A stretch of DNA of 47,977 nucleotides, from positions 1-47,977 of IMG/VR virus record IMGVR_UViG_3300032242_001291; one strand, given 5' to 3'. Under the pieces are notes generated by a model. It made no database searches, had not been told where the DNA came from, and saw only the letters and a program-made list of their open reading frames with translations. This DNA comes from a virus. This document shows, piece after piece, positions 27,669 through 47,977 of this stretch; within the stretch, counting starts at the first letter, position 1; every line of letters starts with the position of its first letter. A program made the translations under genes and the position numbers.

Positions 27669-27671
27669 ATA
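27664..27671 (+). promoter_or_regulatory. Late promoter octamer overlapping the gp7 stop codon
   Basis: AATAAATA contains the TAA stop of the giant gene (27666-27668) and precedes the next gene by about 15 bases. It matches the T4 late consensus at 7 of 8 positions. A transcript starting near 27677 would leave almost no leader for the ATG at 27686, but would suit the alternative start at 27737. Confidence 0.4.
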
Positions 27672-27685
27672 AGAGAGTGAAGAGT

Positions 27686-28345: not shown

Positions 28346-28351
28346 CATCTA

Positions 28352-31842: not shown

Positions 31843-31848
31843 TAAATA
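31841..31848 (+). promoter_or_regulatory. Late promoter octamer before the third fibre gene
   Basis: GATAAATA matches TATAAATA at 7 of 8 positions, in a 36-base gap. It overlaps the TGA stop of the second fibre gene. The expected start near 31854 gives a leader of about 25 bases containing AGGAG (31866-31870) before the ATG at 31879. This is the best-placed of the octamers in the window. Confidence 0.6.
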
Positions 31849-31878
31849 TCTTATAGATATGATTTAGGAGCCATTAGT

Positions 31879-33411: not shown

Positions 33412-33449
33412 GTAAAGAGATAAATTAAATTTGATAGGAAGAATATAAG

Positions 33450-34373
33450 ATGGTCGCACAAAATGCTATAATTTATGCTAGTGATTATAATACGATACAA
33501 TCAACAGTTGCTGGTGTATTAGGAACAGGTTCAAGCACATTAGGGTATGGCCAGACAGTAAATAGTCAACAGATAACTAGTGGATCATTAATATCAGATG
33601 AACCAACTCCTACTGCATATCAATGGGCTGCACTATATGCTGATATGGTACAGATTGCTAATCATCAAGGTACAAGTATTAGTTCTCTTACTACTACTGT
33701 TACAAATAATGTTGCTCCAGGAAAAGTTATCTATGCTGCTGATATTAATGTATTTTCTACTACAGCAACTACTTTACAGACTAACGCATTAACATATGCT
33801 GCCGGAGATATGATTACTACTACAGGTATAATTACTTCACAGAGAACGACTGCTTGGGGCAATAATACTACTAAACAGCAAGTACAACACTCCTTCACGG
33901 TAGCATTTGCTAGCTATAATGCTGCTCGTTATTTCTTTAATACTGGGGGTGCTGTACAGTTTACGGCCTCTAGGTCCGGTGGAACTACTTCAACACAAAA
34001 TAGTGATTGGACAAGTACATTAACAAATATTGGAACTGTTACTTTTAATTACAATAGTACAAGTGCTGCTTCGGGATCGGGGTCGGCTATAGGATTCTAT
34101 GGGCTAACTGCTTCTCCACAAACACTATATTCAAAGAGCGGCGGATCTGTTAGTTCTGTATATGTTCCAGATGTTTATACAATCACTGCCAGTTATAATA
34201 GCGTCAATTTTACTATAACTTTTAATGTAGTTTTTAATGATGCCCATGCTAATGCTTATAGCGATTCGGTTGATGGAACTCTCACTAGTTCAATTAATCT
34301 AAGGAAAGCAGGAGCTTCTTATCTCACTATTACTGCTCCAACATTTACTAATAGTACATTGTTATCTGCTTAA
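33450..34373 (+). CDS. Conserved virion structural protein (fibre-associated)
   Basis: A 307-aa Ser/Thr/Ala-rich protein with two related N-terminal segments (IIYASDYNTIQSTVAGVLGT and VIYAADINVFSTTATTL). Its C-terminal beta-rich half contains NAARYFFNTGGAVQFTASRS, GTVTFNYNSTSA, IGFYGLTAS and DSVDGTLTSSINL. Proteins with the NTGG...SRSGG pattern occur beside fibre genes in T4-like marine phages and are annotated as structural. The exact function is unknown; a fibre or decoration role is inferred from position. AGGAAG lies about 10 bases upstream of the ATG. GATAAATT at 33419-33426 is a weak late-promoter candidate before it. It is the last gene of the structural block. Confidence 0.7.
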   Translation: MVAQNAIIYASDYNTIQSTVAGVLGTGSSTLGYGQTVNSQQITSGSLISDEPTPTAYQWAALYADMVQIANHQGTSISSLTTTVTNNVAPGKVIYAADINVFSTTATTLQTNALTYAAGDMITTTGIITSQRTTAWGNNTTKQQVQHSFTVAFASYNAARYFFNTGGAVQFTASRSGGTTSTQNSDWTSTLTNIGTVTFNYNSTSAASGSGSAIGFYGLTASPQTLYSKSGGSVSSVYVPDVYTITASYNSVNFTITFNVVFNDAHANAYSDSVDGTLTSSINLRKAGASYLTITAPTFTNSTLLSA

Positions 34374-34380
34374 TCAAAAC

Positions 34381-34409
34381 TTGGATTTAATACAATAATA
34401 TTGTATAAT
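34381..34409 (+). promoter_or_regulatory. Sigma70-type promoter of the accessory operon
   Basis: A perfect -10 TATAAT (34404-34409) lies 17 bases after TTGGAT (34381-34386), a weak -35 that keeps the TTG. Transcription would start near 34416, close to the GGAG ribosome binding site (34422-34425). It stands in the 59-base gap between the last structural gene and the run of overlapping accessory genes. Confidence 0.6.
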
Positions 34410-34422
34410 TACTTTATTATTG
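34391..34422 (+). repeat. Nested inverted repeats over the accessory-operon promoter and ribosome binding site
   Basis: Two alternative hairpins share bases. TACAATA-A-TATTGTA (34391-34405) is a perfect 7-bp palindrome touching the -10 box. CAATAATA (34393-34400) pairs with TATTATTG (34415-34422), whose last base is the first G of the ribosome binding site. Both are AT-only or nearly so, and thus weak. Confidence 0.6.
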
Positions 34423-34432
34423 GAGATTTCTT

Positions 34433-34783
34433 ATGGATGACAGATTAAAATCTGCTCTCGATGTGGCTAATAGGATGGTTACATTTAATACACAAAAAGA
34501 ATTAATCAAACAAGAATATAAAGAAAGCTGTCTCTATCACGAGAATGGTCATCAGTTCACGATTGATAGAGAACTTATAAATTTCTTAACTGCTCTCATA
34601 CAGATGGGATATACTGAAGATGTAGTTGTTATTGATGATTTTGAAAATCCCTATATGATATCAAATATAGAAGAATTCCGCTCTAATATTTTTTCTATCT
34701 ATGCTGAGAAGAGCAATGAATATTATCACAAGTATATTGAATTGAAAAAGAATCGTTCAGTACTAACTATGATCGGAATGTAA
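34433..34783 (+). CDS. Conserved hypothetical protein, first gene of accessory operon
   Basis: A 116-aa protein with a helical N-terminus (LKSALDVANRMVTF), HQFTIDRELINFLTAL in the middle, VVVIDDFENPYMI, and a C-terminal helix ending HKYIELKKNRSV. I recall small proteins with the FxIDRELI and S(R)S(V) patterns next to fibre genes in marine T4-like phages, with no assigned function. It has no membrane segment or signal peptide. GGAG is 7 bases from the ATG and the stop directly abuts the next ATG. It could be an adaptor or assembly factor, but nothing in the sequence proves it. Confidence 0.65.
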   Translation: MDDRLKSALDVANRMVTFNTQKELIKQEYKESCLYHENGHQFTIDRELINFLTALIQMGYTEDVVVIDDFENPYMISNIEEFRSNIFSIYAEKSNEYYHKYIELKKNRSVLTMIGM

Positions 34784-35665
34784 ATGACGTCAGGTGTATT
34801 AATGTTTGCCCACAATAATCGAGAAATTGATTATGGAATGATGGCATATGTTTCAGCTAGATATGTAGAGAAAAATCTAAAAGTACCAGTTAGTTTAATA
34901 ACAGATTCTGGTACTATCAAATGGTTAGATAAGAAAGATACTAGTTTAAAAAATGTATTTGATAAAATTATATTGACGGACGAATTATCTCAACCTGAGA
35001 GGCAAGATAAAAGATTTTACGATGGATCTGTAGACTACAAGAAAACAGCATTTAATAATGGCTTCCGTGCTAGGGCATATGATCTTACCCCATACGATAA
35101 GACATTAGTTATAGATACTGATGTACTAATTAAGAATGATCAACTGAAAAACATATGGAATTCAAATACAGATTTTATGATCAATCATAAACACATAGAT
35201 GTAGAATATTCTAGAAATCGAAATGAATTTAATAAGATAAGCGAGTATACGGTTGATTTTTATTGGGCTACTATTTTTTATTTTGAAAAAACAGAATGGA
35301 CTAAAACTTTTTTCGATCTCTGTCAGCATATAGCAGAGAATTATGAATATTATAGATTTATATATCAGATAGCATATCCTCTACTACGTAATGATTATAT
35401 TTTTAGTATAGCTGTTCATATAATGAATGGATTTAATAATAAGACTAAGCCACAGACATTGCCTGCTGATTTATATTATACGCTCGATCGTGATGTATTA
35501 CATCAAGTTAATCTAAATGGAGATCTTGTATTCTTAATACAGAAAGAAAATTTATTAGGTGAATATACATTAGCTAAAACAGGTAATCAAAATATCCATA
35601 TCATGAACAAGTATAGTTTTAGTAGGAATATTCCAAATCTATTGGAGGCACTTAATGTTAACTAA
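34784..35665 (+). CDS. GT8-like glycosyltransferase
   Basis: A 293-aa protein with the layout of GT-A glycosyltransferases of the GT8/nucleotide-diphospho-sugar transferase type. The N-terminal strand GVLMFAHNN is followed by an AYVSARYVEK helix, VSLITDSG, and then YDKTLVIDTDVLI with the metal- and sugar-nucleotide-binding DTD at 111-113. A second acidic patch is ADLYYTLDRDVL. It would transfer a sugar from a nucleotide sugar to an unknown acceptor in the cytoplasm. It begins immediately after the previous stop and overlaps the next, related gene by 11 bases. Confidence 0.65.
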   Translation: MTSGVLMFAHNNREIDYGMMAYVSARYVEKNLKVPVSLITDSGTIKWLDKKDTSLKNVFDKIILTDELSQPERQDKRFYDGSVDYKKTAFNNGFRARAYDLTPYDKTLVIDTDVLIKNDQLKNIWNSNTDFMINHKHIDVEYSRNRNEFNKISEYTVDFYWATIFYFEKTEWTKTFFDLCQHIAENYEYYRFIYQIAYPLLRNDYIFSIAVHIMNGFNNKTKPQTLPADLYYTLDRDVLHQVNLNGDLVFLIQKENLLGEYTLAKTGNQNIHIMNKYSFSRNIPNLLEALNVN

Positions 35666-36524
35666 AGGCTATCTAATATTAGCACAAAATAACAGTTCAG
35701 ATGATTATGTAAGGATGGCATATGTATTAGCCCTCAGTATAAAAACATCTCAAAAATCTGTTACTTCAGTTAGTCTTGTAACCGATGTAGTTGATGCTGT
35801 ACCTGAACATTACAAGTCTGTATTTGATCATGTTATTGAAATACCTTGGTATGATGATGCGCTATCTACTGAATGGAAGGTAGAAAATCGTTGGAAAATA
35901 TATCATGTAACACCTTATGATGAAACTGTTTTGCTTGATGCCGATATGTTGTTTTTAACAGATATTAGCCATTGGTGGAACCATCTTAATAAAAATTATG
36001 ATCTTTTTATCACTTCATCAGTATTAACATATCGCAATGAGATAGTAACTAACAATTACTATAGGAAAGTATTCACGGAAAATAATTTACCAAATACATA
36101 TAGTGCGTTTACTTATTTTAAGAAATCACAATTAGCAGAAGAATTTTGGACATTAGTTGAAATTATCGCTAAAAATTGGCAAGAATTTTATGATAGATAT
36201 CTACCTAATTTCCGTCCTAAATTCCTTAGTATGGATGTAGTATTTGCCTTAGCAGCGAAGATATTAGATATTGAAGATCAGATAACAACAAAATTCGATT
36301 ATCCCACATTTGTACATATGAAGAGTAGAGTACAGAATTGGGTTACTGTAACTGAAGATTGGATGGATTATGGAGGTGTGTACCTAAATAGGCAAGGCGC
36401 ATTAAAGATAAGCAATTATCAACAGACAGGTATATTCCACTATACAGAAAAGAAATTCTTAAACAATCATATTGAATATGTATATGAAGACCTTTACAAG
36501 GAAATAATAAATGAGTCAAGATGA
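35655..36524 (+). CDS. GT8-like glycosyltransferase, paralogue of the preceding gene
   Basis: A 289-aa protein with the same order of elements as the preceding gene: GYLILAQNN, an AYVLALSIK helix, VSLVTDVVD, then YDETVLLDADMLFL with DAD at 95-97. The remainder diverges (HWWNHLNKNYDLF, FVHMKSRVQNW). This indicates an old duplication and probably a different acceptor or donor. A perfect GGAGG lies 6 bases before the ATG, inside the end of the upstream gene. The following gene starts 14 bases before its stop. Confidence 0.65.
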   Translation: MLTKGYLILAQNNSSDDYVRMAYVLALSIKTSQKSVTSVSLVTDVVDAVPEHYKSVFDHVIEIPWYDDALSTEWKVENRWKIYHVTPYDETVLLDADMLFLTDISHWWNHLNKNYDLFITSSVLTYRNEIVTNNYYRKVFTENNLPNTYSAFTYFKKSQLAEEFWTLVEIIAKNWQEFYDRYLPNFRPKFLSMDVVFALAAKILDIEDQITTKFDYPTFVHMKSRVQNWVTVTEDWMDYGGVYLNRQGALKISNYQQTGIFHYTEKKFLNNHIEYVYEDLYKEIINESR

Positions 36525-37140
36525 CGCAGCCGCTTTAGAATTATTGAAAAAATTATTAGCACCAAAACTACCTATAACTTTTTATTTCTACTATGATCCG
36601 TCTAATGGTGTTATTAAACATCTTAAACCATTTTATGAAGATGAGGGTCTTCCTTATATAACCGTTCCTGAAGATCAAGTTGATGCAGATATATGCCTTG
36701 ATGATTATCGTATATTAGAGAAGGATGGGAAATTCCAATTAATTAAAGAAGATCGTTCTATTGAAAAGATATCAAAGATCGATGACAATATACATCAGAT
36801 TCCAAAATATCTATCGGATCCTGATAAGAAAGTATCTCAAGCGAATTATCAATTTGATTTATTGATCGAACAGGACAATATTAAAAAGGAATTCCGTATA
36901 AGGATTTCCGGAATAATAAAGGATCAATATAAGCAGAGTTTAGGATCTAAACAAAAATTCTTGTTCTATGTTACTGAAGAAAATGATCCCAACATTCTTT
37001 ACAAAACACTTGACATATCTTTATCTAAACTGTTACAATATCATTATTATACTATACCTTATGAAGATTATGATGGTACATCTTGTAACATATATTCTAT
37101 GAGATATTTCTGTAATTATTTACATCTGGTGATTGAATGA
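36511..37140 (+). CDS. Unknown protein of the glycosyltransferase operon
   Basis: A 209-aa protein I do not recognise. It starts with a helical segment (DDAAALELLKKLLAPKL), then a strand ITFYFYYDP and acidic VPEDQVDADICLDDYRILE. This is followed by a charged middle and a C-terminus rich in Tyr (LLQYHYYTIPYEDYDG). No signal peptide, membrane segment, cysteine cluster or catalytic motif is visible. It overlaps both neighbours (14 bases upstream, 4 bases downstream), which suggests expression in fixed ratio with the glycosyltransferases on either side. An accessory subunit is possible but not shown. Confidence 0.6.
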   Translation: MSQDDAAALELLKKLLAPKLPITFYFYYDPSNGVIKHLKPFYEDEGLPYITVPEDQVDADICLDDYRILEKDGKFQLIKEDRSIEKISKIDDNIHQIPKYLSDPDKKVSQANYQFDLLIEQDNIKKEFRIRISGIIKDQYKQSLGSKQKFLFYVTEENDPNILYKTLDISLSKLLQYHYYTIPYEDYDGTSCNIYSMRYFCNYLHLVIE

Positions 37141-38012
37141 CTAAATTGCTATTACATGACATTGATACTATATTCATCAGTTATGATGAACCTAATGCCG
37201 ATAAGAACTATTCTGAATTGGTAAAAATATTACCATGGGCTAAACGAATACACGGTGTTAAGGGTAGCGATAGTGCCCATAAGGCTGCTGCTAATCTTAG
37301 TGAGACTGATAGATTTGTAACAGTTGATGCTGATAATATAATTGATTCTCGATTTTTCGCACAGAATATTGAATTAACAGATGAGAATCGAGATTTTGTA
37401 TTTTCGTGGTGCGGAAAGAATGCTATCAATGGTTTGATTTATGGTAATGGTGGATTAAAGTGTTGGACTAAAGATTTTGTCTTAAAAATGAAAACTCATG
37501 AAAATTCAGATCCTAATGATACTGAAAGTGTAGTTGAATTTTGTTTTGATCCTAGATATTATCAGATGAATGAATGCTATTCTACCAGTTATATCAACGG
37601 TAGTCCTTTCCAAGCATGGCGTGCTGGTTTCCGTGAGGGCGTTAAGATGAGTCTCGATCGCGGAGCAAAGGCACTAGATATTAAGCGTGTATGGTGGCAG
37701 AATTATCAAAGACTTTTAATTTGGTGCAACGTTGGTTCTGATGTAAAGAATGGTATATGGGCGATGTATGGTGCTAGATTAGGCTGTTATCTTACTGCTT
37801 GCACTGATTGGGATTATACACAAGTTAGAGATTTTGAATATCTAACAGATTACTGGAAAAAAAATGTTGAACATATATATGTTCAAGATGAACTAGAAGG
37901 TATCGGTAATAATTTACGTCAATCTTTAGATTTAGAAATAGCCGAAATGGATAGTAACTCATCTAGATTTTTCAAATCAGTATACCAGAATACCCCAAGG
38001 ATTTATCGATGA
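37137..38012 (+). CDS. DxD-containing glycosyltransferase-like protein
   Basis: A 291-aa protein. The N-terminal half has the GT2-like arrangement IDTIFISYDEPNAD (10-22), then KRIHGVKGSDSAHKAA (36-51) and FVTVDADNII (60-69), with the DAD motif at 64-66. The next part reads FVFSWCGKNAINGLIYGNGG. The order of SYDEPNA, GVKG...AHKAA and VDADN marks a family seen in marine phages and annotated as glycosyltransferase or hypothetical. The C-terminal half (RVWWQNYQRLLIWCNVG) is unassigned. It couples by ATGA overlaps to the genes on both sides. The truncated gene at the right edge looks like a distant relative. Confidence 0.6.
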   Translation: MTKLLLHDIDTIFISYDEPNADKNYSELVKILPWAKRIHGVKGSDSAHKAAANLSETDRFVTVDADNIIDSRFFAQNIELTDENRDFVFSWCGKNAINGLIYGNGGLKCWTKDFVLKMKTHENSDPNDTESVVEFCFDPRYYQMNECYSTSYINGSPFQAWRAGFREGVKMSLDRGAKALDIKRVWWQNYQRLLIWCNVGSDVKNGIWAMYGARLGCYLTACTDWDYTQVRDFEYLTDYWKKNVEHIYVQDELEGIGNNLRQSLDLEIAEMDSNSSRFFKSVYQNTPRIYR

Positions 38013-39373
38013 GCAATGAGGATAGGATAGAAATATTAAAGAATAAGAAAACACAGATTAACGATGTCTCTCCTAGTTTCTGTACAGCCAAATGGTTACA
38101 AACTACTTTATATCTACAAAATGGATTTAATCATAGTTGCCATCATCCTTCACCTCATAAAATTCCAATAGAAGAAGTTGAAATAGATCCTGCTGCACTA
38201 TCTAATAGTAACTATAAGAAAGCATTACGTAAACAGATGTTAGAAGGAATACGTCCTAGTGAATGTGATTATTGTTGGAAGATAGAAGATTTAGATAAAG
38301 AGTATTTTAGTGATCGCCATTATAAGACAAGTGATTATTGGGCATGGGATAGATTTAATGAGATAGCAAATAGTAATTCTTCTGAAAATATAAATCCCAG
38401 TTATTTAGAAGTTAGTTTTAGTAATGCTTGTAATTTTAAATGCGCTTATTGTAGTCCAGAAGTTAGTAGTAAATGGCTAGAAGAGATTAAAGAATTTGGA
38501 CCATATCCTACTACTCAAAGTAATCATAATCTAGATTGGCTTAAAAAAGTAGGAAAATATCCATATAAAAATAGCGATAATAATCCTTATGTTAATGCAT
38601 TTTGGAAATGGTTTCCAAATATACTCCCTACATTGAAAGTTTTTAGAATAACTGGCGGCGAACCTTTAATGAGTAAAGATATTTGGAAAGTATTTGAATA
38701 TCTAAGAAATAATCCTCAACCTAATTTAGAATTAGCTATTAACAGCAATCTCTGTGTAGAACAGAAACTATTTGATAGATTCCTAGAGGAGATTAATAAT
38801 TTAGGTAATTCTGTTAAAAAAATTGATATCTATACAAGTTTAGAAAGTGTAGGAGAAAGAGCAGAATATGTGAGATTTGGTTTAAATTATAACCAATGGT
38901 GTAGAAATGTTAGAACAATTCTTTCACAAACATCCCATGATGTTTTAATAATGACAACTGTAAATGCCCTTAGTGTTTCGACTATGGTAGATTTTTTAGA
39001 ACTTATTATGCAATTTAGAAGAGAATTCAATAATACTTTTGAGAAAAATAGAATCCCAATTAGTATCAATTATTTACGTTGGCCACCTTATTTAGATGCT
39101 CGTATACTACCAAATGATTTAAAGAAAGATTTAGCAAAAAAAATATTTGATAAATCGGAGAATTGTACAAAATATTTTTCACAAGACAAATATGCTAGGA
39201 TTTATTTAGAAGAATCAGATCAGATAAAAAGATTTTGTGAATATTTAATTCAAGATGGTGATTATACAGAACAAAAAATTGACTTTATCAATTTTATTAA
39301 CGAATATGATAAGCGTAAATCTACTAATTTTATTGAAGTGTTTACGGAATTATCGATGCTTTTAAAGGAATAA
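38009..39373 (+). CDS. Radical SAM protein with N-terminal cysteine motif, copy 1
   Basis: A 454-aa protein. The radical SAM cluster motif CxxxCxxC is at C141, C145, C148 (SNACNFKCAYCS), with the SAM-binding GGEP at 216-219 (RITGGEPLMS). An N-terminal set of cysteines (C25, C44, C86, C89: SCHHPSPHKIP, ECDYCWKIED) resembles half of a SPASM/twitch auxiliary Fe-S domain, here placed before the core. Such enzymes cleave S-adenosylmethionine to a 5'-deoxyadenosyl radical and modify peptides, sugars or other substrates. The substrate here is unknown. AAGGA precedes the ATG, which overlaps the upstream stop. Confidence 0.85.
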   Translation: MSNEDRIEILKNKKTQINDVSPSFCTAKWLQTTLYLQNGFNHSCHHPSPHKIPIEEVEIDPAALSNSNYKKALRKQMLEGIRPSECDYCWKIEDLDKEYFSDRHYKTSDYWAWDRFNEIANSNSSENINPSYLEVSFSNACNFKCAYCSPEVSSKWLEEIKEFGPYPTTQSNHNLDWLKKVGKYPYKNSDNNPYVNAFWKWFPNILPTLKVFRITGGEPLMSKDIWKVFEYLRNNPQPNLELAINSNLCVEQKLFDRFLEEINNLGNSVKKIDIYTSLESVGERAEYVRFGLNYNQWCRNVRTILSQTSHDVLIMTTVNALSVSTMVDFLELIMQFRREFNNTFEKNRIPISINYLRWPPYLDARILPNDLKKDLAKKIFDKSENCTKYFSQDKYARIYLEESDQIKRFCEYLIQDGDYTEQKIDFINFINEYDKRKSTNFIEVFTELSMLLKE

Positions 39374-39374
39374 T

Positions 39375-40841
39375 ATGCCTAGAAAAACAAATGAATCGCT
39401 AATTGAATATCGCAGTCGAGTAATAGACTCAAAAAGTAAAAGTTTTTGTGGAGCTAAATGGCTTAATGCTACTACTTGGCTTGGTAGTGGAACTACTGCT
39501 AGTTGTCATCATCCACCGGCACATAAGATTCCATTAGACGAAGTTAACGAAAATTTCACGGCTATACATAATACTAAACATAAAAAACTTATGCGTAAGA
39601 TGATGCTAGAAGGAGATCGTCCTGCTGAATGCGAATATTGCTGGAAGATTGAAGATATGGGTAAAGATAGTATTAGTGATCGTGTCTTTAAAACTGTAAT
39701 TTATAATGATGAAGAATTAGATTTTATAAATGCTTTACCTTGGGATTCTAATGTTAATTTAAAAACATTTGAGATTAGTTTTGATCGTGTTTGTAACCTA
39801 GCATGTAGTTATTGTAATGCTAGTTTTTCAACAACATGGGCTAAAGATATTAAAAATAATGGCCCTTATCAAAATTTAATAAGCGACGGTAGTGGTGCTT
39901 TTAAACAGGATGGTTCTTGGGTTGAACCTTTTAAGAGAGACGAAGAAAATCCATATGTTACAGCATTTTGGAAATGGTGGGACAGTGGATTAAATGAATC
40001 GTTAGAGGAAATAAGGATTACTGGAGGCGAACCACTAATGAGTGGTGAAACATGGAAATTGTTAGATTCTTTTGAAGAGAAACAATCAAAAATGAGATTT
40101 GCTTTAAATAGCAATCTTATGGCTAAATCTGATATTATTGACAAATTAATTTCTAAAACAAAAAAGATAAAAGATTTTCATCTATATACTAGTTGTGAAT
40201 CAGTAGGAAAACAAGCCGAATATATACGTGACGGATTAGATTACAATTTATGGAAATTTAATGTTATTAAAATTGGTCAAGAGGCTAATATTAAAGGGTT
40301 ACATATAATGATGACTATTAATAGTCTTTCATTGTTTAGCATTACAGAATTTTTAGATGAAATATATGAGATGAAAAAATTGTTTTCAAAAGGAAAACAT
40401 CCAGTTGTTAGTTTAAATCTTTTAAGATTTCCAAGTTTTCAAAGTCCATTGGCATTGCCTGATCATATTAAAAATTATTGTAGAATAAAATTAGAAACAT
40501 GGTATAATTCTGTAAAAGATAATGAATTATGGCTTGAATTTGAAAAAGCTAGTATTGAAAGACTTATTGATTATTTAATAACTGTTGATGCCCCTCATCG
40601 TCGTACAAGTGATAGAATATTATTATGGAGAGATTTTAAAACATTTTATCTTCAATATGATCAACGAAGAGGAAAGAGCATAAATGTATTTCCAACAATT
40701 TTAATTAATTGGATAGAACAATTACCTGATACAATTACTGAAAAAACTTCGTTAATTGACGGCGATAGTACTAAACTTTATGATAATGATGAGCAATTAA
40801 AAAAATTAGCAAAAAAACAAGGATGGATACTAGAATCATGA
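39375..40841 (+). CDS. Radical SAM protein with N-terminal cysteine motif, copy 2
   Basis: A 488-aa paralogue of the preceding gene. The N-terminal cysteines fall at exactly the same positions (C25, C44, C86, C89; SCHHPPAHKIP, ECEYCWKIED). The cluster motif is C140, C144, C147 (RVCNLACSYCN), and GGEP is at 217-220. Shared blocks such as NPYVTAFWKWW and the later TSCESVGKQAEYIRDGL (TSLESVGERAEYVRFGL in copy 1) show recent common origin. The retained cysteine spacing suggests both are active. It begins one base after the upstream stop with AAAGGA as ribosome binding site. Confidence 0.85.
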   Translation: MPRKTNESLIEYRSRVIDSKSKSFCGAKWLNATTWLGSGTTASCHHPPAHKIPLDEVNENFTAIHNTKHKKLMRKMMLEGDRPAECEYCWKIEDMGKDSISDRVFKTVIYNDEELDFINALPWDSNVNLKTFEISFDRVCNLACSYCNASFSTTWAKDIKNNGPYQNLISDGSGAFKQDGSWVEPFKRDEENPYVTAFWKWWDSGLNESLEEIRITGGEPLMSGETWKLLDSFEEKQSKMRFALNSNLMAKSDIIDKLISKTKKIKDFHLYTSCESVGKQAEYIRDGLDYNLWKFNVIKIGQEANIKGLHIMMTINSLSLFSITEFLDEIYEMKKLFSKGKHPVVSLNLLRFPSFQSPLALPDHIKNYCRIKLETWYNSVKDNELWLEFEKASIERLIDYLITVDAPHRRTSDRILLWRDFKTFYLQYDQRRGKSINVFPTILINWIEQLPDTITEKTSLIDGDSTKLYDNDEQLKKLAKKQGWILES

Positions 40842-42103
40842 TAGATAAGGAAAAAATATTAAAGTCAAAATTTTTTTGTATGTCTCCTTGGACTCATATG
40901 CATTTTATGCCTAATAAAGATGTCAATACTTGTTGTTTGTCCCCAATTGATCAAACGATTGGAAGTTTAACAGATAATAGCATTAGAGATATTTGGAATG
41001 GTGATAAAATTAAAACACTTAGATTAAACATGTTAAATGATAAGCCTAGTACTGATTTTTGTAATCGATGCTATGAAAAAGAAAATGATGGGTTCACTGG
41101 GTTGAGAACTCATATGAATAAAAGTTATTTAGAAAAACATTGGAATATTGTTAATCAAACTCAAATAGATGGGACAGTTGAATCTCTTAATTTAATTCAT
41201 TGGGACTTTAGGTTTAGCAATATATGTAATCAACGATGCCGAACTTGCGGAATTGAATTTTCTTCTCAATGGCACGATGATTGGATTAAACTTTACGATA
41301 TTTCAGATAAGACTCATTTACCTAAAATTAAAAAAATATGGAATAATCTAGAATCTTTTGAAAAAGAATTCGAAGAATTGTTTGATGTAGTTGAATATAT
41401 TCATTTCGCCGGCGGCGAACCTTTAATTACTGACGAACATTATCGAATATTAGAAAAATTAATAGAAAAGAAACAATTTGATGTTAAGATAAGATATAGT
41501 ACTAATTTTACTAATTTGAAATATAAAAATTATGATTTAGTAGACATGTGGAAGAATTTCAAAAATATTGAATTAATGGCTAGTTTAGATGATTATGGCA
41601 GTCGATATAATTATATGCGCAAAGGCGGCGATTGGAATAAAGTTGTGGAAAATTTTCAAAGGTTAAAAGATGCTAGACTTTTTGATAATAGCAACATACG
41701 TTGGGGTATACATCCTACTATTAGTTTTTGGAATATTTATTATCTCCCCGAATTTCATACAGAATGTATTAGATTAGGAATGGTCGATATACGAAAAAGG
41801 AAAGATCATTTTACTACAATTTTTCATTTAAATAATCTTATGTTTCCTGATTATTATTGTTGTCAAGTTTTACCAAGCAATTTAAAAGAAGAAGTATCAA
41901 AAAAATTAAATGATTATGCAGATTGGTGCGAATCAAAATATAAAATTAATTCTGATGGAATTAGGAATTTAGTCATATTTATGAATCAGGAAGACAAATC
42001 TAATTTATTAAATATTACAAAATCGATGATTAATAAATTAGATAATATTCGAAATGAAAACACATCTGATATATTTCCGTTTTTAAAAGAGATATTTAAA
42101 TGA
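40838..42103 (+). CDS. Radical SAM protein, twitch/SPASM-like, copy 3 (divergent)
   Basis: About 421 aa from the ATG at 40838, which forms the ATGA overlap usual in this operon; an in-frame ATG at 40823 is the alternative. The N-terminal motif (C14 in FFCMSPWTHMHF, C32-C33 in NTCCLSP, then SIRDIWNG, and C75/C78 in FCNRCYEKE) is like the C-terminal SPASM/twitch half of known radical SAM enzymes, here at the front. The core has C130, C134, C137 (SNICNQRCRTCG) and AGGEP at 191-195. It is clearly more distant from copies 1 and 2 than they are from each other, so a separate reaction is likely. Confidence 0.85.
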   Translation: MIDKEKILKSKFFCMSPWTHMHFMPNKDVNTCCLSPIDQTIGSLTDNSIRDIWNGDKIKTLRLNMLNDKPSTDFCNRCYEKENDGFTGLRTHMNKSYLEKHWNIVNQTQIDGTVESLNLIHWDFRFSNICNQRCRTCGIEFSSQWHDDWIKLYDISDKTHLPKIKKIWNNLESFEKEFEELFDVVEYIHFAGGEPLITDEHYRILEKLIEKKQFDVKIRYSTNFTNLKYKNYDLVDMWKNFKNIELMASLDDYGSRYNYMRKGGDWNKVVENFQRLKDARLFDNSNIRWGIHPTISFWNIYYLPEFHTECIRLGMVDIRKRKDHFTTIFHLNNLMFPDYYCCQVLPSNLKEEVSKKLNDYADWCESKYKINSDGIRNLVIFMNQEDKSNLLNITKSMINKLDNIRNENTSDIFPFLKEIFK

Positions 42104-43230
42104 AAATTAAAATACTTGCTGAATTTCAAAAAGTGCAGATTTATAATGATAATATATCTGTTAATTGGAAACTTGAAAAAGATAGTATAATTAATGATGA
42201 TAATAAATTCCATTATTTTAAATATTTTGATATTGATTTTTCTTGGGATTTTGATCAAAACACGCGATATATTTTTCCAATATTTTGGGAGTTTTCTAAT
42301 GAACTTATGCCTCAAGTTTATAAATTTGTAAAATCTAATAAAAATTTATTTGTAAATAAGCAATTAATTCCTGTATTTTTAGATCCTTTAGAAGGAAATA
42401 TTGGTATAGCTGAACATATAGATGTTTTTTCTAAAGATTTTAATGACATTGACGTTTATTTTATAAGCGGTGATTATAAATTAAAAACAAGAAATAATAT
42501 TTTTAAATTTTTTTATGTTAATCATTGGCAACAACATCTTGATCCTAAAGATTCTCTAATAGGATATACTCCGTACAAGGATTATATAAATCTCAATCGT
42601 ATGCCGCGGTTACATAGGTGTATATTAATGCAAAAAATAATAGATAATAATCTATTAAGCAACGGATATAATACCTGGGCTCTTCAAAATTGGAAAAATA
42701 ACATTTATTCTGAAAATTTCTTTAAAAAATTTAATGAAGATTACCCAAATAATACAATTAATTTACAATCCTATGATATATTGGATGTAAATGATATTGG
42801 TAATTCTAATCCTACATTTCGCATACCAATAGCCCATTGCGAAAAAACTTTTATATATCTAGTTACAGAAACACACATCGACAATAAATGTTTTTTTATA
42901 AGTGAAAAAACATATAAACCTATTTCTATAGGTATGCCATTTATCCTATTAGGAAATCCAGGAACATTGCAATCTCTTAGAGAAGATGGATATGCTACAT
43001 TTTCAAATTGGATTGATGAAAGATATGACATGGATCTTCCATTAGATGAAAGAATATCTATTATAATAAACAATTTAATAAAGATATCAAATTTGCATAA
43101 TATTGAAAAAATTAATATTAGAAGACAGATGAATGAAATTTGTAAGCATAATCTAACTTTATATAAATTACTTAATAATAAAAATAATTTTATTGAAATA
43201 TTAAAACTTATAGAAAAAGGTACAGTTTAA
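42100..43230 (+). CDS. GT-B-like putative glycosyltransferase, cassette A
   Basis: A 376-aa protein. The C-terminal motif from about residue 266 reads FISEKTYKPISIGMPFILLG, then NPGTLQSLREDGYATFSNW and IDERYD. The gene at 44010 has the same motif. An SEK...P...G.P pattern resembles the donor-site region of GT-B enzymes such as fucosyltransferase- or exostosin-like families, so a glycosyltransferase role is likely but unproven. The N-terminal 200 residues are AT-driven Asn/Lys/Ile-rich and unassigned. It overlaps the third radical SAM gene by 4 bases and is followed after one base by an SGNH-like gene. Confidence 0.55.
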   Translation: MKIKILAEFQKVQIYNDNISVNWKLEKDSIINDDNKFHYFKYFDIDFSWDFDQNTRYIFPIFWEFSNELMPQVYKFVKSNKNLFVNKQLIPVFLDPLEGNIGIAEHIDVFSKDFNDIDVYFISGDYKLKTRNNIFKFFYVNHWQQHLDPKDSLIGYTPYKDYINLNRMPRLHRCILMQKIIDNNLLSNGYNTWALQNWKNNIYSENFFKKFNEDYPNNTINLQSYDILDVNDIGNSNPTFRIPIAHCEKTFIYLVTETHIDNKCFFISEKTYKPISIGMPFILLGNPGTLQSLREDGYATFSNWIDERYDMDLPLDERISIIINNLIKISNLHNIEKINIRRQMNEICKHNLTLYKLLNNKNNFIEILKLIEKGTV

Positions 43231-43231
43231 A

Positions 43232-44008
43232 ATGTCTATTATTACATCTTTAAAAAGAATTCCTTTACAAGATGGATATGTAATCCCATGGACACCATTT
43301 ATTCCAAATCAAATAGCCGATGTTGAATGGGATAAAGAAATCATCAACGATGGATATGAGGGCAAACTTAGTTACTCATTGAATGAGTTTGGATTTAGGT
43401 CTCCAACTGTTAACAAAGATAAAAATTTAATTCTTTTTAATGGATGTAGTTTAACTTTTGGAAGTGGTCTTGCTTTAGAAAATACTTGGTCATATTTAAT
43501 TGCTTCAAATCTTAAAAAAGAATTAGAATATATGAATATTGGATTATCAGCGACTGGACCAGATATACAAATATTAAATTTACATTGGGCAATAGATAAT
43601 TTTAAAATTGATAAAATTTTTTGGTTTATGAGCGATCCTTATAGACAAGTAATACATTATAATTATGGACATTATAACTTTTATCTTCCTAATAATAATG
43701 TTCAACTTTTTAATAATAAAAAAATAAATGAAGATTTTGTAAATTTATCAATACATTTAGAAAAAAATAATTACATAAAATTATATTGGCAGTTATATGG
43801 TCTCTTTTCAAAAATATCTGATAAAAAAATAGAATCTTATATCACATGTTGGATAGAAGATTTTGATAATATTATCATGCCATTAAAAAATAAATTTAAT
43901 ATTAAAAATTTACCAAAGTTTAATAATATAGATATTGCTAGAGATAATTTACATCCCGGAAACAAGTCAAATTTAAAATTTTCTGAAGAAATATTAAGGA
44001 ATTTATAA
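43232..44008 (+). CDS. SGNH hydrolase-like protein, cassette A
   Basis: A 258-aa protein with block I NLILFNGCSLTFGSG (nucleophile candidate S73) and block V DNLHPGN (D238, H241), the ends of an SGNH/GDSL catalytic triad. A GLSATGPD segment near 105 may supply block II. Members are esterases, acetylesterases or sugar O-acyl transferases. Pairing with a glycosyltransferase-like gene suggests adding or removing acyl groups on a glycan. No signal peptide is seen, so a cytoplasmic site is likely. The N-terminal 60 residues (FIPNQIADVEWDKE, LNEFGFRSP) are as in SGNH-like proteins of phages and capsule loci. Confidence 0.7.
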   Translation: MSIITSLKRIPLQDGYVIPWTPFIPNQIADVEWDKEIINDGYEGKLSYSLNEFGFRSPTVNKDKNLILFNGCSLTFGSGLALENTWSYLIASNLKKELEYMNIGLSATGPDIQILNLHWAIDNFKIDKIFWFMSDPYRQVIHYNYGHYNFYLPNNNVQLFNNKKINEDFVNLSIHLEKNNYIKLYWQLYGLFSKISDKKIESYITCWIEDFDNIIMPLKNKFNIKNLPKFNNIDIARDNLHPGNKSNLKFSEEILRNL

Positions 44009-44009
44009 A

Positions 44010-45233
44010 ATGGAACATACATTTTTTCAGCATCTACGTATTCCGGTGTATTTTGAAAATCACATTAATCAACCACCATATATTAATGGATTTTCTTCGG
44101 AAGCATTAGCAACACATATGTCACCTGATCCAAATTGGACAAATAATACTAAAGTATTTTATGGTCACTGTACATTTGATACTCTTTTTATTACGATAGA
44201 TCAAATCCCTGAATCTACAAAATTTTATTATCCAATGGTGGCTGTTTTTGGTACTATTCTAAATATCATAGACACTGTTAATATAAGTGATCAGGTAATT
44301 GATACTATTAAAAGTGGGCAATGTCGTATACTTTGTTTTGGACCATATGAAGGATGGGATTATAATTGGTTTTGGAAAAAATATATAAATGCAATTCAAA
44401 GAAAATACAATTTAAATGATAGTCATTTTATTTTAGTTGATGGAGGATATTTAGATAATAATCCAGTTACTCGTATTCCTTATAATGTTTGGGAAGAAAC
44501 CTTTCATGCAGATTTTTATCGACGAGGTATTGAAAGAATTTGTGATATTAGACCAAATAAATTTATCTGCTTAAATCGTCGACCTTCATCTCATAGGTTT
44601 GCAATGGTTACAGGATTATTTCCGTATAAAGATATGGGAATATTAACAATGGCAAAGAATGCCGGATATAATGATGATTTTCGTAACTCTTCTGAAGATA
44701 CCTTTTTTAGAGAGTTTCCAACGTTAAAAGATTATTATTTAGATAATGTAAAATCAAATATTCCATTAATCTACAAACACGATATAATTGATCCAGAAAT
44801 AGATAATCCAAATTTTGATGATCAAGTTGATAAATTTCATCAAAGTTACTTACAAATAATTACGGAAACTCATTATAGAAATAATACTCTTTTCCTTAGC
44901 GAGAAGATTTTTAAGCCTATTTGTCATTGCCAACCATTTGTAGTTTTTGGAAATCCTAAAACATTAGAACTTCTGAGATCATTGGGATATGCAACATTTT
45001 CAAATTGGATTGATGAAAGTTATGATGAAGAACTAGATCCAGAAAAGAAATATTATAAAATAATGTCTTCTATAACGGAGTTTATAAATAGAAGTCCAGA
45101 TGAGTTAACTTCTATGATTGTACAAATGAAACATATTTTTGATCATAATTATGAAAATTTAGTTAGAAGACAAAAATCAGATATAATGTTAACTTTATTG
45201 TCAAGGTTAAGAAATGAGCTATATAAAAAATGA
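44010..45233 (+). CDS. GT-B-like putative glycosyltransferase, cassette B
   Basis: A 407-aa paralogue of the gene at 42100. The shared C-terminal block begins near residue 290 (LFLSEKIFKPICHCQPFVVF, NPKTLELLRSLGYATFSNW, IDESYDEEL). The middle contains FICLNRRPSSHRFAMVTGLF, where an N-R-R-P...H-R pattern precedes the donor region, consistent with a GT-B fold. Corresponding parts of the cassette A protein (INLNRMPRLHRCILMQKI) can be matched. The acceptor is unknown. AAGGAA is the ribosome binding site, with one base between genes; the stop overlaps the next start. Confidence 0.55.
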   Translation: MEHTFFQHLRIPVYFENHINQPPYINGFSSEALATHMSPDPNWTNNTKVFYGHCTFDTLFITIDQIPESTKFYYPMVAVFGTILNIIDTVNISDQVIDTIKSGQCRILCFGPYEGWDYNWFWKKYINAIQRKYNLNDSHFILVDGGYLDNNPVTRIPYNVWEETFHADFYRRGIERICDIRPNKFICLNRRPSSHRFAMVTGLFPYKDMGILTMAKNAGYNDDFRNSSEDTFFREFPTLKDYYLDNVKSNIPLIYKHDIIDPEIDNPNFDDQVDKFHQSYLQIITETHYRNNTLFLSEKIFKPICHCQPFVVFGNPKTLELLRSLGYATFSNWIDESYDEELDPEKKYYKIMSSITEFINRSPDELTSMIVQMKHIFDHNYENLVRRQKSDIMLTLLSRLRNELYKK

Positions 45234-46030
45234 TAAAGTATCTAATAACTTCTGGATGCAGTTTTACAGATAATCACCTTAACTCTAAAAGATGGCCTCA
45301 TTTTTTATCAGATATTACAGGACTATTTCTCTATAATAGAGGGCAAGGGAGTGCTGGAAATAATTGGATATCAAAATCAATTATATATCAAATACAAATT
45401 TTATTAAATTTAGGAGTATTTCCTAAAGAAATTTTAGTAATAACTATGTGGTCCGGGATTGATAGAAAAGATTTATTTATTTCATCGTGCGAAGACAATA
45501 TGTTTAATAAATTATTAAATGATGATCAATCAAACCCTATAAATTTTTTAGATGATACTCCAAATGTTTCTAGTAACACGAATAAAATCGATGGATATCT
45601 TTTAGGGGCAGCTACTTGTAAATTTAATAATATTAAAATAAATTCTTTTAAACAAGAACTTATTTTGAAATATTTTTCAAATGAAGCACTTGCTATAGAA
45701 TCATATGAACATTTTTTAAGATTGCAATGGTTCTGTGAAAGTAAAGGTATTATTTGTATTAATCAAACATATAAAGATATAATGCATTATCCTGACTATA
45801 CTGATCAAATTTTAACAAAGGATTGTTATAGAAATATAAAACATCTTTATGAACTGATAGATTTTGATAAGTGGATATTTTGGAAAGATAATAAAGGATT
45901 ATACGAATATACTAAAGATGTTTCAAACATGTTTGGTGATGATAAATTTCATCCTTCTGAAGAAGGCCATCGCCATTATGTTATAAATTATTTAATTCCA
46001 ACTCTTAAACAAAAAAATATTCATATTTGA
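45230..46030 (+). CDS. SGNH hydrolase-like protein, cassette B
   Basis: A 266-aa protein with block I LITSGCSFTDN (S11 nucleophile candidate), a GSAGNNWISKS segment that can act as block II/III, TMWSGIDRKD, and block V DDKFHPSEEGH (D238, H241). These are the SGNH esterase/acyltransferase signatures. It differs from the cassette A enzyme in having block I right at the N-terminus. Its partner gene upstream overlaps by 4 bases. It is the last gene of the uninterrupted operon; a 74-base gap follows. Confidence 0.7.
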   Translation: MIKYLITSGCSFTDNHLNSKRWPHFLSDITGLFLYNRGQGSAGNNWISKSIIYQIQILLNLGVFPKEILVITMWSGIDRKDLFISSCEDNMFNKLLNDDQSNPINFLDDTPNVSSNTNKIDGYLLGAATCKFNNIKINSFKQELILKYFSNEALAIESYEHFLRLQWFCESKGIICINQTYKDIMHYPDYTDQILTKDCYRNIKHLYELIDFDKWIFWKDNKGLYEYTKDVSNMFGDDKFHPSEEGHRHYVINYLIPTLKQKNIHI

Positions 46031-46104
46031 AATATTTAAGATGCATCGACAAAAAAATCATTTATAGAAATTATTAATAATACAAAACAATATAGGAGAT
46101 TTAC
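46031..46104 (+). other. Intergenic gap with AT palindrome before the dehydrogenase gene
   Basis: A 74-base AT-rich gap. It contains the perfect 12-base palindrome ATTATTAATAAT (46070-46081) and an AGGAG ribosome binding site (46093-46097). I find no convincing -35/-10 pair, late octamer or terminator hairpin. Confidence 0.4.
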
Positions 46105-47337
46105 ATGAATATCGGATTTATAGGGATTGGAAAATTAGGAATGCCATGCGCAGAAGTTATAGCATCTAAAGGACACTCCGTTAATGGATATGATATATCA
46201 AAAAAAACTAATGATCTAATCAATGTAGTTGATTCTATAGAAGAATGTGTTAAAGAAAGAGATATAGTTTTCATAGCAGTTCCGACTCCACACGATCCAG
46301 CATATGATGGTAGAAACCCAACAGCACATTTAGAGCCTAAAGATTTCAGATATGATATCGTTAAGGATTGCATAACTGAAGCGAATAAGTTTATGAACGA
46401 AGGTCAGTTATTAGTTTTGATTTCAACAGTTCTTCCCGGCACAACTAGGCGAGAATTTATTCCTTTAGTTACAAATACTAGATTTGTTTACAACCCATAT
46501 CTTATCGCTATGGGAAGTGTTGCTTGGGATATGATAAATCCTGAAATGGTTATGATTGGAACTAAAGATGGTAATATTACAGGTGACGCTGCTCAATTGG
46601 TAAATTTTTATAAAACTATTATGGAAAACGATCCGAGATATGAAATTGGAACATGGGACGAATGCGAATGTATAAAGGTTTTCTATAATACATTTATATC
46701 GGCTAAAATTGGACTAGTTAATATGATACAGGATGTAGCAGTAACGCAGGGAAATATTAATGTTGATGTGGTTACTAATGCCTTATCTAAGTCGACTATG
46801 CGTATTATGGGTCCACAATATATGAAAGCCGGAATGGGAGACGGCGGCGCATGTCATCCAAGAGATAATATAGCATTGAGATATATGGCTAAAAAATTAG
46901 ATCTAGGTTATGATTTATTTGATTCTATAATGAATGCTAGAGAAATTCAGGCTGCTAATCTAGCAAAATTACTTGTTTTAGAAGCCAAAAAAAATTCAAT
47001 GGATATCTATATACACGGTAAAGCATATAAACCTACAGTTGAATATCTAGACGGTAGTTATAGTTTGTTAATTGGACATTTTTGCGAAAAATTTGGTTTT
47101 ATTCCAAAATATATTGATCCATTAACTGGTGATAAATATGATGAAGTATATGGTGTTATTCTTTTAGCGCATAATTGTAGAGTTACATATGAGTATGCTG
47201 GTAAAAAAGAAGAACAAGGATTATATTGTAAGATAACGGATGGAAGTATAGTAGTTGATCCTTGGAGATCTTTTAAGACAGAAAATGAAAATATTAAGAT
47301 AATCCATTACGGAAATACTAGGATATCAATCAAATAG
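46105..47337 (+). CDS. UDP-glucose/GDP-mannose 6-dehydrogenase family protein
   Basis: A 410-aa nucleotide-sugar dehydrogenase, which oxidises the C6 hydroxyl of a UDP- or GDP-sugar (or a UDP-HexNAc) to the uronic acid with two NAD. The N-terminal Rossmann motif is GFIGIGKLGMP (4-14), followed by FIAVPTPHDP and LISTVLPGTTRREF. The catalytic cysteine is C250 in GDGGACHPRDN, where most family members have GGxCFPKD. The C-terminal UDP-binding part is present (GKAYKPTVEYLDGSYSLLIG). It would supply an acidic sugar donor to the glycosyltransferases upstream. AGGAG lies 7 bases before the ATG. The exact sugar cannot be told from sequence. Confidence 0.85.
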   Translation: MNIGFIGIGKLGMPCAEVIASKGHSVNGYDISKKTNDLINVVDSIEECVKERDIVFIAVPTPHDPAYDGRNPTAHLEPKDFRYDIVKDCITEANKFMNEGQLLVLISTVLPGTTRREFIPLVTNTRFVYNPYLIAMGSVAWDMINPEMVMIGTKDGNITGDAAQLVNFYKTIMENDPRYEIGTWDECECIKVFYNTFISAKIGLVNMIQDVAVTQGNINVDVVTNALSKSTMRIMGPQYMKAGMGDGGACHPRDNIALRYMAKKLDLGYDLFDSIMNAREIQAANLAKLLVLEAKKNSMDIYIHGKAYKPTVEYLDGSYSLLIGHFCEKFGFIPKYIDPLTGDKYDEVYGVILLAHNCRVTYEYAGKKEEQGLYCKITDGSIVVDPWRSFKTENENIKIIHYGNTRISIK

Positions 47338-47353
47338 TATGTTATAATAAATT

Positions 47354-47977
47354 ATGTATGATATTTTTTATCTTAAAAAAGACAACATAGAAGATATAAA
47401 TCTTTTAAAGTTACGTAAACGATTTCCTTTAATTAAAATTATTGAGTATAGTGGTAATAAATTTGAAGCTTTAACTAAGGCTAAGAATAGATCTTTAACT
47501 AAGATTTTTTGGATAATTGATCTTGATGATGATTATCAAATCACGGATAGTTTTAATTTTGATTACGTTATCCCAGATTGGGATAAAGTTTATATTCATA
47601 TATGGAAGAAAAAAAATAATGATGTAGAAGTTTCTTTTGGAAATGTTTATTTGATACCAAAAGATTATCTTTTTTCTAGCAAAGAAGCCAAATATTCATT
47701 TTTTATTAATAAAAAAGAAATCTTAATAGAAGCTTCTGAATTCTCGTACGATATTTTAAAATTAAAAAAAACAGATAATACTTACGAAGTAATTACATCT
47801 TTTCAACAAAAAATAAACACATCTATGTTCTGGGTATTAGCACCTGAATGTAAATTATTAACAGATTTAACATATCTAGTACCTGATTATGATAAAGAAT
47901 ATGTACATCAATGGATACCTATAAATCATACATATCCTAATCTTTTCTTAATACCAAAAAATTATCCAATATCAACG
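47354..47977 (+). CDS. Partial glycosyltransferase-like protein with internal repeats (runs off right edge)
   Basis: The frame is open from the ATG at 47354 to the window end (208 codons). The start MYDIFYLKKDNIEDINLL, then RFPLIKIIEYSGNKFEALTK and FWIIDLDDD, follows the same order as the gene at 37137 (SYDEPN, GVKG...AHKAA, VDADN), so it seems a diverged relative. Residues 53-105 and 160-204 form two repeats: FW at the start, (V)PD(W/Y)DK(V/E)Y(I/V)H.W in the middle, and LIPK.Y at the end. There is no clear ribosome binding site. TATAAT at 47343-47348 is followed by the ATG after 5 bases. Confidence 0.6.
   Translation, partial: MYDIFYLKKDNIEDINLLKLRKRFPLIKIIEYSGNKFEALTKAKNRSLTKIFWIIDLDDDYQITDSFNFDYVIPDWDKVYIHIWKKKNNDVEVSFGNVYLIPKDYLFSSKEAKYSFFINKKEILIEASEFSYDILKLKKTDNTYEVITSFQQKINTSMFWVLAPECKLLTDLTYLVPDYDKEYVHQWIPINHTYPNLFLIPKNYPIST

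Follow-up and report, generated by a model that had tools for sequence, protein, structure and literature searches.

A glycosyltransferase operon inherited with the tail fibres of uncultured phages: a candidate early system for remodelling the host surface glycan

Glycosyltransferase genes beside phage fibre genes have so far been read, mostly by guess, as virion decorators or as host-surface modifiers, and the locus described here raises the question of which of the two applies. The window, that is, the whole stretch of DNA analysed, is a virus record of 47,977 bases (IMGVR_UViG_3300032242_001291), along which genes were numbered g01 to g29. Directly behind the fibre genes, 14 consecutive plus-strand open reading frames (ORFs) occupy 34433 to 47977, where the window ends, in keeping with the claim of a preliminary description of this DNA that at least thirteen genes run in one direction there. 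With belief and doubt about evenly matched, we favour the reading that this run is an early operon that remodels a glycan of the host surface and is inherited with the fibres, over the reading that its enzymes glycosylate the fibres. The fibre block and the run are composed as follows (SAM, S-adenosylmethionine; UDP, uridine diphosphate).

28352..34373, plus strand: fibre block g12, g13, g14 and g15, with paralogous N-termini in g12-g14; it sits upstream of the core in relatives
34433..34783, plus strand: g16, ORF of 116 amino acids, first gene of the core, no assigned function
34784..35665, plus strand: g17, GT8-like glycosyltransferase with a DTD motif
35655..36524, plus strand: g18, GT8 (glycogenin-like) glycosyltransferase with a DAD motif
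36511..37140, plus strand: g19, 209 amino acids, no assigned function; in relatives the slot often holds a g19- or f24-type protein
37137..38012, plus strand: g20, putative GT-A-fold glycosyltransferase-like protein with invariant D64/D66
38009..39373, plus strand: g21, N-twitch radical SAM protein, CNFKCAYC
39375..40841, plus strand: g22, N-twitch radical SAM protein, CNLACSYC, paralogue of g21 (37%)
40823..42103, plus strand: g23, N-twitch/SPASM radical SAM protein, CNQRCRTC
42100..43230, plus strand: g24, GT-B-like protein, paralogue of g26
43232..44008, plus strand: g25, SGNH-like at motif level only (GCS at 71, DNLHP at 238)
44010..45233, plus strand: g26, GT-B-fold glycosyltransferase-like by predicted structure
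45230..46030, plus strand: g27, SGNH-like by motifs (GCS at 9, DKFHP at 238) and a sub-threshold Pfam GDSL match
46105..47337, plus strand: g28, UDP-glucose-type 6-dehydrogenase by family matches
47354..47977, plus strand: g29, another member of the g20 family, truncated where the contig ends

The successive gaps from g16 to g29 are 0, -11, -14, -4, -4, +1, -19, -4, +1, +1, -4, +74 and +16 bases. Genes g16 to g27 form a compact run with a largest gap of 1 base, followed after 74 bp by g28 and then by g29, which is incomplete as the contig ends inside it. The compactness described earlier was recovered, except that the overlaps extend to 19 bases rather than 14.

To determine which part of the run is shared, we compared viral relatives from two scans: one with g21, giving 86 relatives of which 80 were kept, and one with a g20 alignment, giving at least 597, from which the best 80 matches to g20 were taken as loci. 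Of the g20 loci, 49 extend 6 kb or more upstream; g17 and g18 were present in all 49, g16 in 48 and g15 in 48, and all of g14-g18 stood in the window's order in 39 of them. In almost all relatives the fibre genes are followed directly by g16-g17-g18-(g19)-g20; as the analysed loci are the best matches to g20, this near-perfect linkage applies to orthologues and not to every family member. A radical SAM gene was found within 7 kb in only 15 of the 41 g20 loci with enough downstream sequence, and the glycosyltransferase core was absent from 25 of 54 g21 loci, in which the radical SAM pair stands behind other genes (e.g., a GT7-like protein, Asp/Asn hydroxylase and GNAT acetyltransferase, sometimes with a carbamoyltransferase near). 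The contig of locus L020 gave 12 matches to the N_Twi_rSAM model, 5 of them over the cut-off, and the 109-kb contig L196, which has the core, gave none over the cut-off. Judged by gene content, g16, g17, g18 and g20 appear as a conserved core, and the radical SAM, GT-B, SGNH and dehydrogenase genes as optional cargo. The same gene set and order, expected in related phages, is hence seen for the core beside the fibres and not for the radical SAM genes, and the single multi-step pathway of the preliminary description is not obligate. At the limits applied, tblastn with g16, g18, g20 or g21 matched none of 50,697 cultured phage records, and g22 gave weak radical SAM matches in Vibrio phages only; the core is therefore known only from uncultured viruses, so far as this collection shows.

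The core is also inherited with the fibres. Among 25 non-redundant loci, the protein distances of g16, g17, g18 and g20 track those of g14/g15 after control for g11, the gene ahead of the fibre block (partial r 0.53-0.74, p 0.002), and once the fibres are controlled for, core distances mostly do not track g11, with g17 versus g15 as the exception. Since the core tracks the fibres and mostly not g11, fibres and core behave as one exchange unit. As a separate observation, g11 is about 90% identical to its relatives in L016, L020 and L042, and their next gene, g12, is only about 36-37% identical, so that a sharp breakpoint is apparent in the alignments where the fibre block starts (27677-28352).

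Three elements bear on when the core and the fibres would be expressed.

34374..34432, plus strand: g15-g16 gap with a candidate sigma70-type promoter, TTGGAT at 34381-34386 and TATAAT at 34404-34409
34393-34400 and 34415-34422, plus strand: arms of a hairpin in the g15-g16 gap, the 3' arm reaching the g16 Shine-Dalgarno GGAG at 34422-34425
27664..27671, plus strand: AATAAATA, candidate late promoter of the fibre region, of type NATAAATA, at the g10/g11 boundary

The motif NATAAATA has been described as the late promoter of T4-like cyanophages (PMC2984593). As AATAAATA lies only 5 bp ahead of the called start of g11, the true g11 start may be downstream. In most of 81 loci the g15-g16 gap is 50-75 bases, and in 64 there is a 4-base overlap between g16 and g17. 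Of 60 non-redundant loci, 62% have a sigma70-type match of at least 10/12 within the 80 bases ahead of g16, versus 1% of shuffles, and 50% have one of at least 11/12, versus 0.3%. Before g12-g15 of relatives, sigma70 matches of at least 10/12 occur in 0-4%, and NATAAATA is found instead, in 27-78%. A further scan, covering 2,512 gene starts under another start choice, placed the sigma70 type before g16 in 61% and NATAAATA before g14 in 78%, g15 in 38% and g11 in 60%, with the late motif before g12 and g13 in only 2-3%; because the two scans disagree on g12 and g13, the late-motif figures of those two genes depend on start choice. The other window families show sigma70 matches in 0-9% nearly throughout (g27, 3/12).

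The two motifs also separate gene classes. In the 169-kb L020 phage no gene is preceded by both; 9 of 10 NATAAATA genes tested are head, tail or connector genes, and among those with the sigma70 type are the late sigma factor, QueE, a 2-oxoglutarate oxygenase, a heptose kinase/adenylyltransferase (a lipopolysaccharide (LPS) sugar enzyme), g16, a second g20 and a radical SAM gene. This division supports the sigma70 type as early and NATAAATA as late, with timing as a prediction. Within the window, WATAAATA is depleted on both strands (7 found versus 37 expected), and its plus-strand copies stand just before g04, g09 and g11, with one more inside g26; depletion and placement fit avoided late-promoter sites, as expected.

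The gap between g15 and g16 further appears to encode a structured leader. In relatives it folds much more stably than shuffled sequence, with a mean z of -2.55 and 58% of loci below -2, and eight other gene starts average about 0. Because leader loops are too variable for an alignment-based covariation count, each arm was paired with its own partner and with swapped ones: own-arm pairing averaged -10.6 kcal/mol versus -7.3 for swapped arms, a value attained in 0 of 10,000 permutations. None of five control gene starts gave a comparable effect, that of g20 giving a slight one. The ribosome site of relatives lies inside the 3' arm, and either the loop or the 5' arm holds the -10 element (or NATAAATA). 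For transcripts begun at the internal promoter, the ribosome site is predicted to be less paired, at 0.31 instead of 0.81 for sigma70 (30 loci) and at 0.33 instead of 0.89 for the late promoter (5 loci). These predicted folds are indicative of a covarying hairpin that buries the g16 ribosome site in relatives. Two other roles of the hairpin were considered and rejected. An intrinsic terminator of the fibre operon would be followed by a U-tract, which only 3 of 41 strong hairpins have, and this role is kept for a few loci such as L041. A conserved protein operator fits less well than an RNA, since the arm sequences vary while the pairing persists. Rfam holds no known RNA family for the leader at gathering scores. 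Elsewhere, about 30 loci (L121-L196) have on the opposite strand a gene, with a start resembling MSHTDPIIDKIIVARVGLLLRHPFFGNMATRL, that is preceded by both a stable leader structure and a sigma70-type promoter. These genes (minus strand, 391-404 amino acids, e.g., in L157 and L194) have a homologue in the L020 phage at L207:15511-16791, which matches phrog_1314, annotated as HNH endonuclease; a switch-like leader may hence serve more than one early gene.

A comparable arrangement is known from T4, in which leader hairpins bury the ribosome site in read-through transcripts of genes e, soc, 49 and I-TevI, and an internal promoter of gene e starts a transcript without the 5' arm (PMC3014915). The leaders described here are alike in the buried ribosome site and in a promoter inside the hairpin that frees it, a prediction that is not significant in the window alone. 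The polarity is reversed: T4 silences early read-through and a late promoter frees the gene (PMC3014915), whereas here late read-through is predicted to be silenced and an early-type promoter to free the gene. By the predicted folds, late transcripts reading through from the fibres would carry the whole hairpin and remain untranslated at g16, and transcripts from the internal sigma70-type promoter would lose the 5' arm and be translated. The enzymes would then be made early and act on the host. In the cytoplasm, the glycosyltransferases would extend or cap a cell-surface glycan of LPS or capsule type, for which the g28 dehydrogenase would supply UDP-hexuronic acid; the SGNH proteins would add or remove acyl groups and the radical SAM enzymes would alter the sugar or its carrier. 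A surface changed in this way may no longer be bound by the phage's own fibre type, which would stop superinfection and the loss of progeny to spent cells, and enzymes that alter the receptor, if matched to a fibre type, would explain why they travel with the receptor-binding genes. We advance more tentatively, with doubt prevailing, the fuller proposal that a widespread cassette, known to date from uncultured viruses alone, joins a fibre set to the receptor-altering enzymes that match it, the two being inherited together and timed apart by a reversed T4-type RNA switch, and that its radical SAM subset installs an undescribed modification of a surface sugar.

Several observations count against an early system that acts on the host surface. 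The window's own TTGGAT-17-TATAAT is equalled by 40% of shuffles, and the window alone was accordingly dropped as proof of a promoter; the separate promoter of the preliminary description is strongly supported in relatives, on which the claim rests, and stands at chance level in the window itself. The window hairpin is marginal (z about -1.9, p about 0.04-0.06), and the nearest relative, L120, is without the promoter/hairpin element. A sigma70-type or late promoter precedes g16 in 42 of the 60 loci, and within these the late promoter occurs alone in 5 and both types in 3, with neither type in the remaining 18; as some lineages have a late promoter or both, timing may have switched in evolution. 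The expression timing of g16-g20 is a prediction, and early-made enzymes could persist and still modify the fibres. Strict linkage to the fibres is equally predicted by fibre modification. The run shows no flippase, polymerase or membrane-bound transferase, and no protein lies clearly above the hydropathy threshold; with no export genes in the run, host export machinery would be needed.

Because early-made enzymes could still act later, the main rival is that they glycosylate the phage's own fibres, likeliest the Ser/Thr-rich g15 or g12-g14, so that fibre and modifier stay together. Strict synteny and co-inheritance with g14/g15 fit this, all core enzymes look soluble, a late promoter precedes g16 in 8 of 60 loci, and virion glycosylation is known in mycobacteriophages (Freeman 2023, as cited in PMC12619734). 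In most relatives, however, an early-type promoter and a predicted translation block of fibre read-through stand before g16, which makes the fibre the less likely substrate; in L020 the heptose kinase/adenylyltransferase shares the promoter class, and bacterial contigs that lack fibres also contain g20 relatives. We therefore consider fibre glycosylation unlikely, and of the two sites proposed earlier for the glycan, on fibres or on host polysaccharide, the host surface is the one we infer. The locus may, on the other hand, hold no single system at all, but a glycosyltransferase core of one function with unrelated recombined cargo in a hypervariable island. The strong variation in cargo composition, the presence of radical SAM genes near only 15/41 g20 loci and the lack of the core at 25/54 g21 loci agree with this, but g20 relatives again lie beside N-twitch radical SAM genes in Bdellovibrionota-like contigs, and g21-g28 are almost without promoters of their own and in tight frames with the core, and we hold it rather improbable. 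Radical SAM enzymes are common in secondary-metabolite pathways, which counts for a further rival, that the product of the operon is a modified small molecule, or that its targets are DNA or nucleotides. Clusters of jumbo cyanophages have been read as secondary-metabolite pathways (PMC7824862), and the GT-B model of g26 resembles T4 AGT/BGT among others. These T4 enzymes, however, match g26 no better than EXTL3 or trehalose synthases, family scans found no base-modifying gene in the run, and the UDP-glucose dehydrogenase and heptose enzymes point to polysaccharide, so that this reading seems very improbable to us.

An early operon that acts on the host surface has precedents in gene content. 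The host recognition cluster of pelagimyophages carries GT8, UDP-glucose 6-dehydrogenase and radical SAM cassettes beside fibres, with a proposed modification of the host O-chain (Zaragoza-Solas 2020, PMC7029224). It is like the present locus in the T4-like phage, the variable island beside tail fibres and the enzyme classes, and the run here likewise holds glycosyltransferases and sugar-supply genes in a T4-like fibre island, the gene content of such a cluster, with the host-surface change as a putative consequence. In comparison with PMC7029224, the differences here are a fixed core order, g16-GT8-GT8-g20, right behind the fibres, and the early-type promoter and hairpin. Other reports describe 12 radical SAM genes in one T4-like genome of marine origin (PMC5332604), core glycosyltransferases in aquatic jumbo phages (PMC12619734), and LPS/capsule modification clusters of jumbo phages thought to pre-empt the attachment of other phages (PMC7824862). 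The latter share paralogous glycosyltransferases and sugar-supply enzymes with our locus; the term radical SAM is absent from that paper, and the g16, g18, g20 and g21 families are unmatched in the cultured phage records searched. In the parts of PMC7029224, PMC5332604 and PMC7824862 available, functions are predictions from sequence. In view of these three reports, the earlier statement that no phage pathway of such composition is known was too strong. Three things appear new relative to the open-licence literature, namely the fixed core, the inheritance of this core together with the fibres, and its leader with an early-type promoter and a hairpin. The class of a promoter and the covariation of a leader hairpin provide sequence evidence bearing on the choice between virion and host surface, usable across many uncultured genomes. 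If the favoured reading is true, these T4-like phages exchange their receptor-binding genes and the matching receptor-altering genes as a single unit, with consequences for host range, superinfection and competition between phages, and the T4 lysozyme-type switch has a mirror-image use.

The enzyme classes named earlier were largely upheld by family and structure comparisons. Two GT8-like enzymes are present: the g18-family profile matches glycogenin-1 (E 5e-6), and g17, a paralogue of g18 (E 1e-14), matches glycogenin weakly (E 0.027). Their DxD motif is conserved, with D111/D113 invariant in g17, and D97 invariant and D95 present in most members in g18. No sequence library scanned recognised g20, and sequence searches of PDB with the g20 and g26 families gave no credible match. 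The g20 model (predicted local distance difference test score, pLDDT, 89) shows a GT-A fold across residues 2-159 and matches B4GALNT1 (Z 10.7, 140 residues, 3.0 A). As MobA and IspD-type nucleotidyltransferases score nearly as high, the fold by itself is no proof of sugar transfer, and on the model we regard g20 as a GT-A-fold glycosyltransferase-like protein with putative sugar transfer. It forms one family with g29 (21 ORFs are matched by both), in agreement with the predicted pair of DxD glycosyltransferase-like proteins. All three predicted radical SAM proteins, g21, g22 and g23, match NCBIfam NF033640 N_Twi_rSAM over their full length (E <= 9e-90; 335, 302 and 348 bits against a curated cut-off of 170), with CxxxCxxC at 141, 140 and 135, respectively. 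Nothing found sets them apart from other members of NF033640, and we know of no function of this family.

Two GT-B-like proteins were likewise confirmed, g26 by model fold and g24 by paralogy. The g26 model (pLDDT 71) gave Z 11.1 for EXTL3, about 10.7 for T4 AGT and BGT and 10.0 for FUT9, with Foldseek E only about 1e-3. As several GT-B families score equally, no function was taken from the match, and DNA glucosylation read from AGT/BGT was dropped. The weakest assignment of the set concerns the two SGNH proteins, g25 and g27, which are likely SGNH-like from their GCS and DxxHP motifs; no family match above cut-off accompanies these motifs, the Pfam matches of g27 lying below it and g25 having none of the SGNH family. 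The nucleotide-sugar dehydrogenase, g28, proved to be UDP-glucose-type: it matches phrog_9148 UDP-glucose dehydrogenase (E 1e-95) and PF03721 and PF00984 above cut-off, with NCBIfam NDP-sugDHase below cut-off, and its translation contains GGACHPRD, the catalytic-Cys GGxCxPxD motif. Catalytic motifs are thus intact in the run.

Ahead of the run, the window encodes a gp55-like late sigma factor (g03), baseplate and other virion genes (g04-g09), a giant protein of 4510 amino acids (g10), a phrog_11259 protein (g11), and in the fibre block a collar domain in g12 and a Ser/Thr-rich protein of 307 amino acids, g15. The g09 baseplate protein is nearest to those of the jumbo T4-like phages Atu_ph07, Phosso, SCTP-2, GAP32 and RaK2, at a distant 33-38% identity. 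The source is an uncultured T4-like phage, probably a large one, and a pelagimyophage proper was dropped as the candidate in favour of this affinity of g09. The ORF of g10 (14136-27668), which separates the baseplate from the fibre genes, may correspond in position to the VrlC-like protein known from marine T4-like phages.

Outside viruses, a single scan of bacterial genomes with g20 yielded 36 loci, some of which are phage contigs binned into metagenome-assembled genomes with the full fibre-core order (e.g., L084, L088 and L099). The Rhodobacterales relatives of g20 have a recurring neighbourhood with the unclassified families b3, b4 and b5, and in several Bdellovibrionota-like contigs g20 relatives stand beside N-twitch and other radical SAM genes, which by gene neighbourhood appears to repeat the g20/radical SAM association outside fibre islands. 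In L089, L091, L095, L100, L104, L112, L113, L115 and L116, mostly with Bdellovibrionota labels, g20 relatives are surrounded by arrays of radical SAM genes from the N-twitch and two further families, and a protein, b10, recurs in them; to our knowledge, no described system corresponds to these arrays. In a second phage lineage (L039-L053, L071, L080 and L082), the radical SAM pair occurs without the glycosyltransferase core and near a carbamoyltransferase, and near genes that, judged by eye, resemble those for a curlin-repeat protein, a CHASE2-like protein and PhoH.

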